From a virus: 62,871 nt of DNA. Under the pieces are notes generated by a model. It did not search any database and was not told the DNA's origin. It worked only from the letters and a program-made list of their open reading frames with translations. The stretch covers positions 1-62,871 of the IMG/VR virus record IMGVR_UViG_3300048918_000336; one strand, given 5' to 3'. Numbering within the stretch: position 1 is the first letter of the stretch; every line of letters starts with the position of its first letter. The position numbers and the translations under genes are program-made. Positions 1 to 62,871 of this stretch are shown in pieces.

Positions 1-127
1 GGGATTGGCGCTCGAGCGCCTCGGCCACTGAGCAGGATGGGGCATCGTCTTCTGGCGCGCTCTCGTCGGCCAGCTCCGGGAAATAATCGAGCACGGTCGG
101 GAGCACTTCGCGCTCCTTGCCGGCGGC
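1..127. repeat. Terminal direct repeat, copy 1 (assembly overlap)
   Basis: The first 127 bases are identical to the last 127 bases of the window. A length of exactly 127 is a common assembler k-mer size, and the ThiF reading frame passes through the join without a break. I therefore read the repeat as the overlap left when a circular or circularly permuted molecule is written out as a line, not as a biological terminal repeat. Confidence 0.93.
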
Positions 128-616
128 ATTCTTCGAGCAGCCGATGATGAATTGCCCGTCGCTCGCGCGGTTGCCGAGATCCATCCAGTAGAACGGGGGA
201 GAATCCGCGTCGGCGATCGCCGCCCCCAGCTCGCGCCTGGCTGAGGCGGTGTCAACGCAGCTGATGAGGAGGTCGGCGCCCCTGACCCCGGTCGCGGCCG
301 GCGCTCGGCCGTGCACGGCTTGCCAAGCGAGACCATGCGCGAGATTGATCCGCTCGGTGAGCGTCCGCGCTTTGGAGTTGCCCAGGTCGCATCGGTAAAA
401 TGGCTGGCGCCCCAGATTTGCCTCGGTCACAATATCGTCGTCGACGACAGTCACATGCAGCGATCGAGATGAGATAGCGCGCAGGGCCGTGTCGAGCGAG
501 GCAAGACCCATGAGCATCTGCGCGCCGTTGCCGCCACATCCGACCAGCAGGATGTTGATCGTGCGCTGGTGGAGCGCGGCAGGTAGATAATGGCGATCGG
601 GGAGGTCAGGCTGCAT
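1..616 (-). CDS. PRTRC ThiF protein, E1-like adenylating enzyme (3' part lies across the contig join)
   Basis: Enzymes of the ThiF/MoeB/E1 superfamily use ATP to adenylate the C-terminal glycine of a ubiquitin-like or sulfur-carrier protein and often then form a thioester. From the ATG at 616 the nucleotide loop GCGGNGA is at residues 26-32, NLGRQ at 67-71, Lys82 in SKART, and VDTASARR at 121-128. Cys195 in PSCSVAEAL is the best thioester candidate. The frame leaves the window at base 1 after 205 codons and resumes at 62744, ending at 62578, for 260 residues in all, a normal length for the family. AGGAG sits six bases before the ATG, and the start overlaps the preceding JAB gene by 11 bases, so the two are coupled. 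The motifs are seen; assignment to the PRTRC ThiF family rests on them plus gene order. Confidence 0.93.
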   Translation of the reverse strand, partial: MQPDLPDRHYLPAALHQRTINILLVGCGGNGAQMLMGLASLDTALRAISSRSLHVTVVDDDIVTEANLGRQPFYRCDLGNSKARTLTERINLAHGLAWQAVHGRAPAATGVRGADLLISCVDTASARRELGAAIADADSPPFYWMDLGNRASDGQFIIGCSKNAAGKEREVLPTVLDYFPELADESAPEDDAPSCSVAEALERQS

Positions 617-1265
617 CGTAATCTCCTGAGAAGGGAAGACGTGGCAACGGCAGGAACATGCCGCCGGCGCAAAGGCGCGACGCGATCACAGGTCCGTCGG
701 GATGGTCGATGCGACCGATGACGATCGAAATCTTTGTCGCATGTGCGTCGTCGGCGTCATCGGTGGCGCTGAAGAATGCGCGGCTATGGCCATGACTGTG
801 GATATCGCAGACCAGATGCCAATCGGGCTGCAGGGCCGGGGTCCGATAGACGAGCCGTGACGGCGTGGCATTGTCGATCGCGGGGAAATTGACCCCGAAT
901 TCCCGCGTGACCTCGTTCCAGATCACGAACGCCGCCGCTTCGTTGGGCAACGCCGCGTAGAAGTGCTCCAGGATATCTTCGATAGGCGCGCGCGGGATCA
1001 ATCCGCAGCGCAAATCTGCCTTCGGTTTGCCCACGCTGCCATATGGAAGGTATCCCGAAATCGGTGACGCGATCGGGGCGTCGAGTTCGAGCCATGGCCT
1101 CCGCAGGATCAACATGACCCCATCGTTCCCGATGGCGAGGCCGTGGCCTGCCCGCGCCGTCCGAAGCGCATCGATCGCCGGCGACCGCCCGCTCGGCGGC
1201 ACAGGATAGCAGGGCACCGCAGCGAGCACCGCGGCGGCTGTCGGATCATCGGCGAGTTGGGTCAT
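606..1265 (-). CDS. PRTRC system protein A, JAB/JAMM metalloprotease
   Basis: 219 residues. JAB-domain proteins are zinc metalloproteases that remove or mature ubiquitin-like proteins. The full JAMM signature HxHx7SxxD is visible as HSHGHSRAFFSATD: His156, His158, Ser166 and Asp169. A Glu in the preceding strand region (EAAAFVIWNE, about 109-118) could be the general base. The N-terminal ~100 residues match the extra region that PRTRC A carries before its JAB domain. The gene overlaps PRTRC B by ATGA at its start and ThiF at its end. This order, with the JAB protease next to the E1, is the usual one in PRTRC cassettes. Activity is inferred from the intact motif. Confidence 0.92.
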   Translation of the reverse strand: MTQLADDPTAAAVLAAVPCYPVPPSGRSPAIDALRTARAGHGLAIGNDGVMLILRRPWLELDAPIASPISGYLPYGSVGKPKADLRCGLIPRAPIEDILEHFYAALPNEAAAFVIWNEVTREFGVNFPAIDNATPSRLVYRTPALQPDWHLVCDIHSHGHSRAFFSATDDADDAHATKISIVIGRIDHPDGPVIASRLCAGGMFLPLPRLPFSGDYDAA

Positions 1266-2059
1266 CGCTGGACGCTCCCCGCGATCAGCTTCCCGAGCGT
1301 GATCGGCTCAATCGCCCCCCGTCGTTGTTCGCGCGGATCGAAAGCCTTGAGACGCTTGACCGGAAAGCGCTGCGCCTGGCGGGCGGCGAGATCTTCCCAG
1401 AGCCTGACCAGCCCGCCTTTGCCTGTAACCGTCAGTTCCTGGCCGGGGTTGGGGTGAGTCGACCATGAGTCAAACACCGCGCGCTCGAACTCCGGGATTG
1501 AAGCGATCGTCAGGGCTTTCGGTCTCGCTACGTTGCCCCAGCAGAGTTTGCCGGTGATGAAGACGTTGAGGATCGGCGAATGAAGCAGCTCGGTATCAGC
1601 GGTGGGCCGCTGGCTCGCCGGCAGGGCATAGACACCAAGACCCGATCGCGTGGCGACGAACAGGTGCGCGGGATACGGGATCGGTACGATCGTTCGCGTC
1701 GATAGCACGTTCACGCCTTTTGGGGGGTTCGTCAGGGCGAAGAAAGCCGGTCGGACCTGCTCGGGAACCCACCACGCGAGCACCTCGGCGTGTGAGACCA
1801 GCACGTTTTCGGGCAGGATCTCGGGTACAACGGTCTGGTCGAGGGCCTCAGCCCATTGGCGAAGGTGCGCGCGCGTGAGCGGGATGCCGGCAGCGATCGT
1901 CGGCCGCTCGTCTTCGAGCTCGACGGCGTGGATGCTGGCGAAGGCAGGTGCGCCGAGCATCTTGCGGCCATGAGTTGGTTCGCTCCGGTAGAGCAGGATG
2001 GCGTTGGTCAGCGCCAAGCCGCCGGCGGTGGCTTCAAATTGTGTGGAATGACTTGGCAT
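1262..2059 (-). CDS. PRTRC system protein B, E2-like (UBC-fold) protein
   Basis: 265 residues from the ATG at 2059, chosen because GAGGA lies five bases upstream. A GTG at 2071 that overlaps the end of PRTRC F is the alternative. The stretch SPILNVFITGKLCWGN resembles the E2 pattern HPN...G.IC that leads to the catalytic cysteine; here that is Cys173 (counting from the ATG). An earlier proline-rich turn (NPPKG, near 111-115) and an aromatic helix after the Cys (FERAVFDSWS) also fit a UBC fold. As I recall, comparative genomics has described PRTRC B as E2-like; I cannot check that here. If correct, it would accept protein C from ThiF as a thioester. Its last bases overlap the JAB gene. Confidence 0.88.
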   Translation of the reverse strand: MPSHSTQFEATAGGLALTNAILLYRSEPTHGRKMLGAPAFASIHAVELEDERPTIAAGIPLTRAHLRQWAEALDQTVVPEILPENVLVSHAEVLAWWVPEQVRPAFFALTNPPKGVNVLSTRTIVPIPYPAHLFVATRSGLGVYALPASQRPTADTELLHSPILNVFITGKLCWGNVARPKALTIASIPEFERAVFDSWSTHPNPGQELTVTGKGGLVRLWEDLAARQAQRFPVKRLKAFDPREQRRGAIEPITLGKLIAGSVQR

Positions 2060-2067
2060 AGGTGTCC

Positions 2068-3195
2068 TCACATGCTGGCTGGGTTGAGGTTGATCAGGTC
2101 TTGGGCGGCGAGCAGGAGCTCCGCGCCGAGCTTCAATGAAGCGAACCAGTCATCGATCTGGCTGGCGTCAGGCAGCGGGCAGAGGCCAGCGACATCCATG
2201 AAGCCCTGCTGCATCCCGTGCTCGCCGACATAGTCGAGTTCCCGCGCGAAGTGGTCGGCGGGGACTAGTGTCATGGCCGGTAGGTGCGAGGCGTCTTCGA
2301 AGTCGGGGATGTATTCAACGATCTGGTCGAACGCGAAGCGCCAGGCGTTCGCCTCGGTCGCAATGCCGGCGAGGGCTTTGTGCAGGTCACGAAGCTTACG
2401 AATGTTCTGTCGCAGTGGGGCCGGCAACTGCTTCATCGGAGCAGCATTCTTGGCGAGCATCCATTCGGGACGCCGGGCATTCATCGCCGACGGCAACATT
2501 TCCTCGTCAATCTCGGCTGGGTCCGTGCCGTGCCATTCGATCATGGCTTTGGTGGCACCGAGGTCGTCGGTTTCGCCGTCCCAATAGTAGCCCGACATCT
2601 CCTCGAAGAGGTCTTCGTACCCAAAAATGGGAAGCGCCATCGACAGCGTATCGACAAGCGCCTTGTAAGCTGCCGCCCGCCAGCTGACCGGTGCGACCCT
2701 CCTGAACGCTGTGTTCCTCAGGACATTGTCGTCGGCTTCGATCCAACCGAGATCGAGTTGTCCGACGCTATCGCAGATCACGGCAAGCGCCGGCGGCAGG
2801 TTCTCGTCGCCGTGGAGAACGACCACCCGCAGATCCGCGAGCTCGAAGGGATTGAGGATCTCGAGCACTGCGGCACCGAACACCTTTTCGATCCGCGCTC
2901 GGGCCTGGGGCCGGGTGTAGCGCCGCGCGGTCGTTTCGCGGGCCGCGACCCAGCGCCCGATCAGCTTGTGGTGCTTCGCAAGCGGCGCGTCGAACAGCGC
3001 CGGGACGTCGATCGAAAGCTTGACCGATCGCCCAGCGAGATCAGCCAAGGGGCGCGAGGCGCAATCCGATTGGCGGTTGAAGCGCCTCGCTTTCCCCGCG
3101 GCCGCCGCTTGTTGGGGCGAGGAGGATTCGCCCATGGAGGACCTGAAGTTCCTCGCTGCAGACTGGCTGGGCAAAGCTGGTACTGTCGCCATCAT
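2068..3195 (-). CDS. PRTRC system protein F
   Basis: 375 residues starting at a double ATG. No catalytic motif is recognisable. The N-terminal ~45 residues are rich in Ser, Ala and Gln and look disordered; the rest looks like a folded, mainly helical protein with acidic patches (EEMSGYYWDGETDDLG, about 200-215). It is assigned to PRTRC F by position between C and B and by its length, which fits that family. The function is unknown. The stop codon overlaps the alternative GTG start of B. A 71-base gap separates it from C, and no strong ribosome site is visible before it. Confidence 0.82.
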   Translation of the reverse strand: MMATVPALPSQSAARNFRSSMGESSSPQQAAAAGKARRFNRQSDCASRPLADLAGRSVKLSIDVPALFDAPLAKHHKLIGRWVAARETTARRYTRPQARARIEKVFGAAVLEILNPFELADLRVVVLHGDENLPPALAVICDSVGQLDLGWIEADDNVLRNTAFRRVAPVSWRAAAYKALVDTLSMALPIFGYEDLFEEMSGYYWDGETDDLGATKAMIEWHGTDPAEIDEEMLPSAMNARRPEWMLAKNAAPMKQLPAPLRQNIRKLRDLHKALAGIATEANAWRFAFDQIVEYIPDFEDASHLPAMTLVPADHFARELDYVGEHGMQQGFMDVAGLCPLPDASQIDDWFASLKLGAELLLAAQDLINLNPASM

Positions 3196-3266
3196 CGGGG
3201 TCGATCCATTCTAGGAGCGTTTTCCGGGGTGCGGCCGGGATGGCCGCGCTGCTGCGCCGGGCCATC

Positions 3267-3473
3267 TCAGCCCTTCGTGCCAACAGCCCGACGGTATTCG
3301 GTCACGTGGACGCCGTTCGACACGCCGGCGTCGGCCATCTCGGCGTTGAGGATCGCCGGATAGAGCGTGGCATGGTAGGCGCGCAGGCCTTGCGTATCGC
3401 CGGCAAGGTGTGGTGGCACGGGAAGGTCGATACCGTCGTAGCGATAGACTTGGGTCAGCTGTTCGATTTTCAT
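3267..3473 (-). CDS. PRTRC system protein C, ubiquitin-like candidate ending in Gly
   Basis: 68 residues with GAGG five bases before the ATG. Pattern: an N-terminal strand (EQLTQVYRYDG), a central helix rich in Leu, Ala and Tyr (about 30-46), and a C-terminal strand that ends VGTKG. This size and arrangement suit a small beta-grasp, ubiquitin-like fold, and the last residue, Gly68, is free at the C-terminus, as needed for adenylation by an E1. Family membership (PRTRC C) is supported by the sequence pattern and by the gene neighbours. Its role as the conjugated protein is inferred from the nearby E1-like, E2-like and JAB genes. Confidence 0.9.
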   Translation of the reverse strand: MKIEQLTQVYRYDGIDLPVPPHLAGDTQGLRAYHATLYPAILNAEMADAGVSNGVHVTEYRRAVGTKG

Positions 3474-3519: not shown

Positions 3520-3918
3520 TCACCAGAGACTGGCGGGCTCGCCTGGAGCGGGCGCCGGGGGTATCGGGGCTGCGGCTGGGGCGGTCGCAGGCGACTTGGG
3601 CGCGGTGGCCGCAGGCTTCGCCTTGGTCTTCGCTGCCTCGGCGGCTTCACGCTGCTCGGCGATCTGGTCGGCAAGCGCCTTTCGCGCCGATATGAGCTGG
3701 CCAAGAGCGCCGTCGGTCCCCTTTGCGAGCTCCGCATCGATCTCAGCTGCAGACGCGGTGATCGATATCGGCCGCGCCTCGCCGGACTCGAGGCTGTGCT
3801 TGCCGCCTTCAGCCTTGCGGGGGATGACGGTCAGGGTGACCGTGTCGTCGGGCCCGGCGACGAGGTTGAAGCCGAGCGAGTAGCGAGACAACAGCGGAAG
3901 CAGGCTGGTGATCAGCAT
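3520..3918 (-). CDS. PRTRC system protein E
   Basis: 132 residues, starting six bases after ParB ends, with AAGGA ten bases before the ATG. A short folded N-terminal part (FNLVAGPDDTVTLTVIPRK, about 17-35) is followed by a predicted helix (about 58-95) and an Ala/Pro/Lys-rich tail (about 96-130) that looks disordered. This layout and the position between ParB and C are typical of PRTRC E. The function is unknown. Confidence 0.86.
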   Translation of the reverse strand: MLITSLLPLLSRYSLGFNLVAGPDDTVTLTVIPRKAEGGKHSLESGEARPISITASAAEIDAELAKGTDGALGQLISARKALADQIAEQREAAEAAKTKAKPAATAPKSPATAPAAAPIPPAPAPGEPASLW

Positions 3919-3924
3919 GGCGGT

Positions 3925-5244
3925 CTATTCCTTTTCAACGGCGGTGGTGGCGGAGGCTTCGGGTTCCGGCGCTGCGCTGCTCGGCGGCGGCCCGTATTTG
4001 CCGTCGAGCGTGATCGCGCTTGGTAGCCGGCCGTCCCAGCTGAACCCGGTTGCGTTGAGCATGCCGGCGACGATGTCGGCCGGTTTGGACTCGAGCAGCC
4101 TCGCGAACTTCCTCGCGCCCATGTGCTCGACAAGGCCGCACTCCTGCGCGATGAACTTGAGCTCGTCCTTGTTGAACCGGCCGAGGAAGGCCTGATCGAC
4201 CTTCCAGGTGTCGCGCAGCGTTGCTTCGAAAGCTCTTGCGATCTCGGGATCGCCCTCGACCGCGCGAATCAGCGCCGTGCGCCACGCGGCCTCGCGGAGC
4301 TCAGTGACCCGGCTGGCGATCGAAGCGGCGGTGACCTTCACAGCCTTCGCGGCCGTGCTGTTGGGCGCTGGCTTGGTGGCAGCTTTCGGCGCTGGGGCAG
4401 GTGCTGGCGCTTCCGGCTTGCGGGAGGCCGGCGCCTCCGCCGCGGCGGGCGGCGCTGCGCTCTCCACAGGTTGCGCCTGAGCCGCCGCCTCGGTCTTCAG
4501 CTGGAAGCAACCGGGATTGGTACAGGCCCCATCATCGACATGGGTTTCGAACAGCGCGCGCTGCGTTCCGGAATTGAACGGGCAGGTCGTGCATTCGGTC
4601 TTGTCGAAGGTCGCGGCGGCAAGGCTCTGTGTCACGCGCATAAGCAGCTCGCGCGTTTTAACGACGTCGAGGCCGGCGCTCAGGATCGTGTCGAGCGCCT
4701 TGTCCTGTTTGTCGCCTGGAACCGCGGCGAGCAGCTCGGCGTGCCCGACCTTGATGCGGCGTTCATCCAGCGCGAGCTTCGCCGCGGCAGAGAGGTTGGC
4801 GAGCGCGAGGCGTCGATCGAGCTTGGCCGGGGACCAGCCGAGCCGGCGTGCCGCCTCGGCGCGCTCATTCTGGCAGGCGGCCAGGACGCGGACCGCGGCG
4901 TCGGCCTGCTCGGTTTCCGAAGCGTCGTCGCGCAGATCGTTCTCGTCGATCGCGGCCTCGAGCGCTTCCTGATCGGTCATCTCGCGGACGATGACCGGTA
5001 CGACACCCTCAGCGCCAAACGCTTCGAGCGCGGCGCGGTACCGGCGCTCGCCGGCGACGATCACATAGGCGCCGTCGGCATCGGCCGCGGGGCGGACCAG
5101 CATCGGCTGAAGCATCCCGCGCAGGCGGAACGAGGCAACGAGTTCGTCATGCTTCGTCCGGTCGAAGTACCGGCGCGGGTTTTCCCCCGGCCGGATCTTG
5201 GGCAGCGGCAACCTGGTCGCGCTGAAGGGATCTGTGGCGTTCAA
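3925..5244 (-). CDS. parB: PRTRC ParB-family protein
   Basis: 439 residues from a TTG start at 5244, preceded by AAGGAGA six bases upstream. The frame stays open for 29 more codons, but without a ribosome site. The ParB/Srx-like N-terminal domain contains GERRYRA at 65-71, the nucleotide-binding box that in other ParB proteins binds CTP. A helix-turn-helix follows at about 128-146 (RAEAARRLGWSPAKLDRRL). Cys218, Cys221, Cys241 and Cys246 form a probable zinc site. The region at about 250-310 is Ala/Pro-rich and the C-terminal domain is unassigned. It heads the cassette and should bind DNA; the GTCTAACC repeats just upstream are candidate sites. There is no ParA nearby, so a simple partition role is doubtful. 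Confidence 0.93.
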   Translation of the reverse strand: MNATDPFSATRLPLPKIRPGENPRRYFDRTKHDELVASFRLRGMLQPMLVRPAADADGAYVIVAGERRYRAALEAFGAEGVVPVIVREMTDQEALEAAIDENDLRDDASETEQADAAVRVLAACQNERAEAARRLGWSPAKLDRRLALANLSAAAKLALDERRIKVGHAELLAAVPGDKQDKALDTILSAGLDVVKTRELLMRVTQSLAAATFDKTECTTCPFNSGTQRALFETHVDDGACTNPGCFQLKTEAAAQAQPVESAAPPAAAEAPASRKPEAPAPAPAPKAATKPAPNSTAAKAVKVTAASIASRVTELREAAWRTALIRAVEGDPEIARAFEATLRDTWKVDQAFLGRFNKDELKFIAQECGLVEHMGARKFARLLESKPADIVAGMLNATGFSWDGRLPSAITLDGKYGPPPSSAAPEPEASATTAVEKE

Positions 5245-5316
5245 CGGTGGTCTCCTTTTGGGGATTGGAAGGTGGCGGGAGTCTGCGACTGCGCGGTCAT
5301 GCGAACGCACCAAAAA

Positions 5317-5504
5317 GGTTAGACATCGCATTCGGGACGCCGCAGATTCCCGTGGCCGCTTTCGGGCCGGTTAGACTTTTCAACCCACTGGAATCAGGTG
5401 CTTGTGGATGCCTCGGTCGGGCCTCCACCTCCAGAAAATTATGCATCGTTTCCAAACCTTTCTTGGAGATTGGTGTCTACCCCATCGGAGAGGTTAGACT
5501 TTTC
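5317..5504 (-). repeat. Three GTCTAACC direct repeats between integrase and ParB
   Basis: On the minus strand GTCTAACC occurs at 5317-5324, 5369-5376 and 5492-5499. The last two extend to an identical 13-mer, GAAAAGTCTAACC (5369-5381 and 5492-5504). The third copy lies inside the 3' end of the integrase gene. Arm-type binding sites for the integrase (attP) or binding sites for the ParB protein both fit the location; the sequence alone does not decide. The 5245-5438 gap shows no other clear feature apart from the ParB ribosome site. Confidence 0.55.
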
Positions 5505-61954: not shown

Positions 61955-62581
61955 TCACCCGTCCCACCCGAAAAGCTTGTTGATCTCGTCCCTGTCGATG
62001 TCGCCCGCGGTTCGGGCCCGGGCGATTGCCACGAGCCGGAACCAGACCCGCCAGTAGCGGCGGTCGAGCTCGGGTGACCACGGCGCGTCTTTCCCATCCC
62101 GCTTCCGGTGCAGTCGCCAAAGGCGATTGTAGACCCGGCGCTCGGCCGAGCCGGGAGGAGCCGCGATCTTGAAATGCTCGCCGCAAAGGTGGGCGTCGTT
62201 GTGGTAATTGCCTGGGGATGTCGCGCCGGTGCGCTTGCAGCCCTCGACGGCGCACGGGTTACGAGAGCGGTGCTTATCGCAGCGCCAGTTCCCATCCGTA
62301 CCCCACATCGTGCCGGTGCGCTCGCCGCAGCATCTGCATCCAGGCCCCGATACGATCTCGAACTGCTCGGCCACGCTGGCCCATTCCGGGCTGTCGAGAT
62401 AGCGCCGCCAGTGCTCGGCGGAATAGATCAGCGTCGCGCCGAACGGGTTGCTAACCAGCTCGTAGACCGCGGCATAGGTGCCGGGCGTGTAGCTGACCCT
62501 CGCTCCGAAGTGGATCAGCTCGGAGCGGTAATACCGTCCGCTCTTGTGGCGGATCTGGAAGCCCTCGCCGTGGCTGATCAT
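61955..62581 (-). CDS. Zinc-binding hypothetical protein directly after ThiF
   Basis: 208 residues; ATG 62581 overlaps the ThiF stop (ATGA), so it is the next gene of the PRTRC operon. Cys/His groups CRCCGERTG (about 81-89), WRCDKHRSRNPCAVEGCKRTG (98-118) and HLCGEHF suggest two zinc sites. The N-terminal part is strand-rich (FGARVSYTPGTYAAVYEL); the C-terminus is Arg/Trp-rich and helical. Function unknown; a target-binding or E3-like role is only a possibility raised by position. Confidence 0.75.
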   Translation of the reverse strand: MISHGEGFQIRHKSGRYYRSELIHFGARVSYTPGTYAAVYELVSNPFGATLIYSAEHWRRYLDSPEWASVAEQFEIVSGPGCRCCGERTGTMWGTDGNWRCDKHRSRNPCAVEGCKRTGATSPGNYHNDAHLCGEHFKIAAPPGSAERRVYNRLWRLHRKRDGKDAPWSPELDRRYWRVWFRLVAIARARTAGDIDRDEINKLFGWDG

Positions 62582-62871
62582 TCAGTGGTCTCAGCCGCCG
62601 CTTTGGCACGAGGCGGAAGAGGTATCGGGACGCTCTGGCCGCTGGCGAGGTTGATGAAGGCGCCAGCGTGGCCGATCGAGCCCCGCCCGAGCAGGTCGAA
62701 CAGAAGCGCGAGCGCGTGGCTCGCCACCACCCGGTTGACGAACAGGGATTGGCGCTCGAGCGCCTCGGCCACTGAGCAGGATGGGGCATCGTCTTCTGGC
62801 GCGCTCTCGTCGGCCAGCTCCGGGAAATAATCGAGCACGGTCGGGAGCACTTCGCGCTCCTTGCCGGCGGC
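62578..62871 (-). CDS. PRTRC ThiF protein, C-terminal part (continues at the window start)
   Basis: This is the end of the E1-like gene. On the circle it follows base 1: residues 206-260 read LFVNRVVASHALALLFDLLG, then GHAGAFINLASGQSVPIPLPP, the expected C-terminal segment of PRTRC ThiF. Bases 62745-62871 duplicate 1-127. The apparent short ORF here is not a separate gene. Confidence 0.92.
   Translation of the reverse strand, partial: AAGKEREVLPTVLDYFPELADESAPEDDAPSCSVAEALERQSLFVNRVVASHALALLFDLLGRGSIGHAGAFINLASGQSVPIPLPPRAKAAAETTE
62745..62871. repeat. Terminal direct repeat, copy 2 (assembly overlap)
   Basis: Identical to bases 1-127; see copy 1. Removing one copy gives a 62,744-bp circle with an intact ThiF gene. 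Confidence 0.93.

Follow-up and report, generated by a model that had tools for sequence, protein, structure and literature searches.

A probable ubiquitin-like modifier with a single terminal glycine, and a candidate partner gene, in the PRTRC cassette of a circular temperate phage

PRTRC protein C of a circular temperate phage is probably the ubiquitin-like modifier of an E1-E2-JAB cassette, and in fused relatives it appears to be made as a precursor, joined to a small protein here called X, that the JAB peptidase of the same cassette would cut. The stretch of DNA analysed (the window) is a viral record of 62,871 nucleotides. An earlier, sequence-only reading had taken C for a conjugated ubiquitin-like protein that needs no processing, and our results support this in part. 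The idea of C as a ubiquitin-like conjugation protein is sound but not new, since operon type 6d, with a beta-grasp protein carrying a conserved C-terminal glycine, was published by Iyer, Burroughs and Aravind in 2006 (PMC1779556, passages on this type). The cassette is named PRTRC in NCBIfam and C is named Prok_Ub in Pfam. The features of the window are the following.

1..127, no strand: terminal direct repeat of 127 bp, identical to 62745-62871
2..616, minus strand: PRTRC ThiF, E1-like, first 205 of 260 residues, Cys195 in PSCS
606..1265, minus strand: PRTRC protein A, JAB/JAMM peptidase with an N-terminal DUF2016 domain followed by Prok-JAB
1262..2071, minus strand: PRTRC protein B, E2-like (Prok-E2_D), Cys177 in GKLCWGNV and downstream His206 in STHPN
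2068..3195, minus strand: PRTRC protein F, diverged, sub-threshold for TIGR03742, true start possibly downstream of 3195
3041..3265, minus strand: unannotated gene X, 74 aa, its ATG one base after the C stop (TGA-G-ATG)
3267..3473, minus strand: PRTRC protein C, ubiquitin-like, 68 aa, ending V-G-T-K-G-stop
3267..3281, minus strand: GTKG codons (the conserved C-terminal motif of C) and the stop codon TGA
3520..3918, minus strand: PRTRC protein E
3925..5331, minus strand: PRTRC ParB-family protein
62578..62871, minus strand: remaining C-terminal part of the ThiF gene

The two ends of the record overlap exactly, so that it closes into a circle of 62,744 bp. That ThiF seems cut short on the left is a linearisation artefact, because the joined ends give an intact ThiF of 260 residues, and with the circle closed and ThiF intact the cassette is complete, containing the full PRTRC or Iyer type 6d set (ParB, E, C, F, B as E2, A as JAB, and ThiF). 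Relative to C and on the same strand, E and ParB lie upstream and F, B, A and ThiF downstream. Five PRTRC profiles scored above cut-off in the window (TIGR03734, 03735, 03736, 03737 and 03741); the profile matches of F and C were below cut-off, with the genes in place. The rest of the circle encodes the structural genes terminase, portal, head protease, major head protein, tail sheath, tape measure and baseplate, together with a DnaB helicase, an integrase and a CI-type repressor. Judged from its sequence, the record is a temperate contractile-tailed phage (myophage) or a phage-plasmid. PRTRC cassettes were also seen on phage contigs of about 40 kb (L091-L157 and L024), including that of the isolated Burkholderia phage BgVeeders33.

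The open reading frame of C at 3267-3473 on the minus strand translates as MKIEQLTQVYRYDGIDLPVPPHLAGDTQGLRAYHATLYPAILNAEMADAGVSNGVHVTEYRRAVGTKG-stop, and the TGA directly after the glycine codon confirmed that the 68-residue protein ends in VGTKG with nothing after the glycine. Pfam PF14454 Prok_Ub matched C end to end (profile positions 2-64 of 64, E = 1.7e-16) with a score of 60.2 bits, above the curated cut-off of 25, and the match of NCBIfam TIGR03738 PRTRC_C reached the last profile position at 38.6 bits, below its curated cut-off of 45.95. The nearest named homologues, about 78-84% identical, are on plasmids of Sphingomonadaceae, and these orthologues carry the RefSeq name 'PRTRC system protein C'. 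At three other loci (L022, L057 and L128; Novosphingobium sp. ST904) a frameshift splits C with the rest of the cassette present, which may reflect either sequencing error or decay.

The structure of C alone was modelled by AlphaFold2 from a 60-sequence alignment. The model (mean pLDDT 82) has the order strand-strand-helix-strand-strand (E8-12, E15-17, H27-37, H39-43, E45-52, E55-61), so that the strand-helix-strand pattern noted earlier from the sequence was slightly incomplete, and the predicted order is ubiquitin-like and not that of an unrelated fold. The final three residues had low model confidence and were predicted to be disordered, as is expected for a flexible ubiquitin-like tail. 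In a VIA-align comparison over residues 3-67, SUMO, ubiquitin, ISG15 and FAT10 made up nearly all of the best 50 rows, at Z scores of only 4.2-4.9 (best 4.9), and a Foldseek search of the model against the PDB gave no match with E below 1. A search of the C profile against the sequences of solved structures was discarded as giving chance matches only (ribosomal uS19, best E 0.03). The topology of the model supports a ubiquitin-like beta-grasp, the match scores by themselves being no proof; given how low these scores are in absolute terms, the case for homology of the fold comes mainly from the family profile and the topology.

Relatives were sampled mainly with ThiF as bait and not C (61 genome loci and 67 viral loci), which avoided a bias towards the C-terminal motif of C, and the sample was enlarged with plasmid records from Bacteroidota, Deinococcota, Nitrospirota, Desulfuromonadales and gammaproteobacteria. 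The C termini, whose alignment the sequence-only reading had suggested as a check, carry an almost invariant glycine. At 90% non-redundancy the last residue of the conserved C domain was glycine in 104/105 proteins and alanine in one, the usual motifs being GTKG, GAKG or KTKG, and in the 60-sequence alignment Leu17, Lys67 and Gly68 were the sole invariant positions. Kept to this extent in proteins collected mostly through ThiF, the terminal glycine is not there by chance. A Gly-Gly end is absent from C: lysine precedes Gly68, with GTKG in most relatives, which bears out the single-glycine end noted earlier. The part that an E1 adenylates is the last glycine alone. The single alanine end (GTKA) belongs to pPRO1 of Pelobacter propionicus, a JAB-bearing locus in which the JAB gene spans the start of the record and follows ThiF instead of preceding it.

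The homologues of E1, E2 and JAB that had been noticed in the operon of C are all present with their catalytic residues. In ThiF, all 137 aligned relatives keep Cys195 of the PSCS motif; the nucleotide-loop glycines and the Arg, Lys and Asp expected of an adenylation site are likewise conserved in all of them. Protein B matched Prok-E2_D with E = 2.2e-29, and among 135 relatives its cysteine is kept in 130 and the downstream histidine in 123. The JAMM residues of protein A in the window are Glu109, His156, His158, Ser166 and Asp169; all 113 relatives keep the Glu, first His, Ser and Asp, and 112 keep the second His. The conserved JAMM residues are found also in loci with a tail-less C. That they are kept where C needs no trimming suggests a second task for JAB, which would most simply be the stripping of C from its targets. 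One decaying cassette was encountered in Colwellia maritima, where the frame of ThiF is broken and C was not found.

The earlier statement that C needs no processing by JAB held for the C of the window and not for the family, as many relatives, near and distant, have residues after the same glycine, in every case alongside a JAB gene. Tails of 1-100 residues follow the conserved glycine in about half of the JAB-bearing relatives. At the non-redundant level, tails were present in 40/69 JAB-bearing loci compared with 0/18 JAB-less loci (Fisher's exact test ignoring kinship, p = 5e-6). When the tail trait was simulated blind to JAB on the ThiF tree, the probability of zero tailed JAB-less tips was 0.012 when tails of every length were counted and 0.089 when the count was limited to those of at least 50 residues, and a comparison of independent pairs had very few pairs in the sample to draw on. 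The association between JAB and tails, being partly phylogenetic, is suggestive and not proven. A whole-record search recovered the JAB of the Pelobacter locus and did not detect PRTRC_A on the 19 other records, a result that refers to these records only, the viral ones among them possibly being fragments.

The tails differ in length. One-residue tails occur in loci close to the window (GTKG-R) and in phages (GTKG-A), tails of 3-5 residues in Cupriavidus and Burkholderia (GAKG-ADA, -AHA and -AYAQI), and tails of 56-100 residues in betaproteobacteria, Xanthomonas, Rhodanobacter, Manganitrophus and many phage contigs, that of Burkholderia phage BgVeeders33 included. Apparent short tails at L146, L148 and L151 were rejected; the profile had ended early and the C proteins there end in GTKG. 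The long tails form about 16 sequence groups. The profile of the largest group (family 0) matched a separate open reading frame in five sister phages (L091, L092, L093, L102 and L157; E from 8e-11 to 4e-30) that starts a few bases past the stop of C, and C in these phages stops at the glycine or one residue beyond. The same reading frame was found also behind C in loci whose C has a different, unrelated tail. The 1-5-residue tails (GTKG-R, GAKG-ADA) come about where the last codons of C adjoin or overlap the ATG of X. When a fused C-X protein was modelled, the tail part was predicted with low confidence (pLDDT 48-79). A separate X gene behind a C whose tail is unrelated to X was observed in L096, L100, L101, L105, L108, L114, L149 and L153, and likewise in L155, L156, L024, L030, L036-L038 and L074.

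In the window, X lies between C and F and overlaps the given start of F, and the true start of F may be later since it is the 2068..3195 reading that overlaps X. The X protein had no family match in Pfam, NCBIfam, PHROGs or PADLOC. Orthologues were found at 32 distinct sphingomonad loci, and these versions have in common the start, the motif RKTLLEWI, a Pro-Cys pair and a terminal L.LAPLG (LAPLG or LPPLG). The median dN/dS over the first 45 codons of the sphingomonad versions was about 0.45, and because of this value and the shared motifs X is very probably a real gene. A scan of the gap between C and F found a small open reading frame X of 57-79 aa in most lineages, its end often proline-rich and hydrophobic (LPPLGALPLVF, LAPSVNHAVLP or LQPPPGLRLAPLG). 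In lineages where a separate X is missing, the tail of C is usually found in its place; in three JAB-less loci of the Pseudomonas type the gap scan gave no convincing X. Homologues of X occur elsewhere as in-frame fusions to C, the homology between distant lineages being weak: when betaproteobacterial X profiles were compared with 51 tails, weak matches were obtained to L104 (5e-6), L045 (7e-5) and L163 (2e-4). All X proteins are likely, though not certain, to share an ancestor. X could be a component of the cassette that is needed in a fixed ratio to C. We regard it as an evenly balanced question whether X is an overlooked member of PRTRC cassettes that in many lineages is made as a C-X polyprotein, cut by JAB exactly after the invariant Lys-Gly, with the ratio of X to tag thereby fixed.

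In the pathway that we consider probable, ThiF would adenylate the carboxylate of the last glycine of C and then bind C through a thioester bond, probably to Cys195, before handing it to Cys177 of protein B; C would next be joined to amino groups of target proteins, from which the JAB protein A would take it off again. In the phage of the window C would be born mature and X would come from its own gene, which starts one base past the stop of C, while in the fused relatives JAB would first have to cut the precursor after the conserved glycine, releasing mature C and free X. Seen directly in the sequences are the operon with its active-site residues, the terminal glycine of C, the tails and the X gene; conjugation and JAB cleavage, like the role of X and the identity of the tagged proteins, we infer from the sequences compared. 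Points against the pathway are the low scores of the structural comparison, the Lys-Gly in place of a Gly-Gly end, the alanine end in Pelobacter, the partly phylogenetic link between JAB and tails and the weak homology of X between distant lineages.

Other readings of the same genes were weighed against this pathway. It is unlikely that the long tails stay on and that C-X is a two-domain protein, with JAB acting on conjugates only. The tails are indeed similar to X in length, and a C-terminal pattern can still be recognised in them, and cleavage of C-X is itself deduced from the comparison; yet a tail left in place would block activation of the glycine by the E1, X is a free protein in the sister phages, tails were never found in the JAB-less systems of the sample, and tails of 1-5 residues make no sense as domains. 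A role of C as a sulfur carrier of the ThiS or MoaD kind, in which adenylation by ThiF would lead to a C-terminal thiocarboxylate for a metabolic or tRNA-modifying pathway, is hard to credit. ThiS, MoaD and URM1 also have a conserved glycine end and are adenylated by ThiF-type enzymes (PMC1779556, relevant passages), whereas the operon of C also encodes a dedicated E2-like protein with a conserved Cys and downstream His as well as a JAMM peptidase, and the scan of the operon proteins found no metabolic or rhodanese gene; the same case against such a role is made by Iyer et al. in the passages concerned (PMC1779556).

We regard it as very improbable that C is a non-covalent adaptor of ParB-linked machinery in which the glycine is kept for packing or binding and not for chemistry. 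The common position of PRTRC genes next to a ParB gene on plasmids and phages would fit such an adaptor, as would the one C member that ends in alanine. Against this, the invariant residue is the last glycine, inside a tail predicted to be disordered, the tails start or the genes stop exactly after it, and the cysteines of E1 and E2 are conserved.

PRTRC cassettes are present on hundreds of plasmids (more than 360 records match ThiF) and on phages. A literature search found no biochemical result for any PRTRC system and no account of what the cassettes tag, and the papers found that name PRTRC are, by their titles and abstracts, genome or expression studies and not biochemistry. The comparison presented here yields sharp tests, namely a predicted cleavage site, natural pairs of fused and split C-X, and a JAB-less group that is expected not to process. 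Because trypsin cleaves after the penultimate lysine, the mark left on a conjugate would be one glycine (+57 Da). This is the mass of carbamidomethylation and not that of the usual Gly-Gly, and PRTRC conjugates would therefore be missed by routine proteomics.

The window agrees with Iyer type 6d in the ubiquitin-like protein with a C-terminal glycine, the helical protein, the E2-like protein with its Cys and His, the JAB protein with an N-terminal domain and the E1-like ThiF; the passages on this type describe neither X nor C-X fusions (PMC1779556). The window differs in that a circular temperate phage carries the whole cassette. No description of X, of its fusion to C or of this phage setting was found in the limited literature covered, and all three look new; the restriction of tails to JAB-bearing relatives in the sample also looks new. 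In eukaryotes, UBA52 and RPS27A are made as ubiquitin fused in frame, straight past its last glycine, to a ribosomal protein, and ubiquitin precursors with one-residue tails also exist. The C-X fusions resemble UBA52 and RPS27A in that a modifier is joined right after its last glycine to an unrelated small protein, and are unlike them in that X is not a ribosomal protein, the cleavage of C-X is a proposal, and the C of the window is unfused.

Another parallel, and a bench precedent for maturation by a JAMM protease, is found in Candidatus Caldiarchaeum subterraneum, where E1, E2 and the JAMM protease Rpn11 adjoin pro-ubiquitin (PMC5654768). The archaeal Rpn11 strips a nine-residue tail off pro-ubiquitin and so exposes the C-terminal glycine, after which the E1 accepts ubiquitin, and it is also a deconjugase and cleaves a ubiquitin-GFP fusion (PMC5654768). 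This system differs from PRTRC in its Gly-Gly end, in its RING-type E3 and in being archaeal (PMC5654768). With PADLOC 2.0.0 the ThiF domain matched E1-E2 models only weakly, and C, A, B, F and X had no match; since this version dates from 2023 and models of Bil and Bub may be missing from it, the lack of matches carries little weight. CBASS Cap2/Cap3, Bil and Bub are bacterial systems with E1, E2 and JAB-type chemistry. Compared with these systems, E1 and E2 are separate proteins in the window, and the cassette encodes a ubiquitin-like protein of its own.
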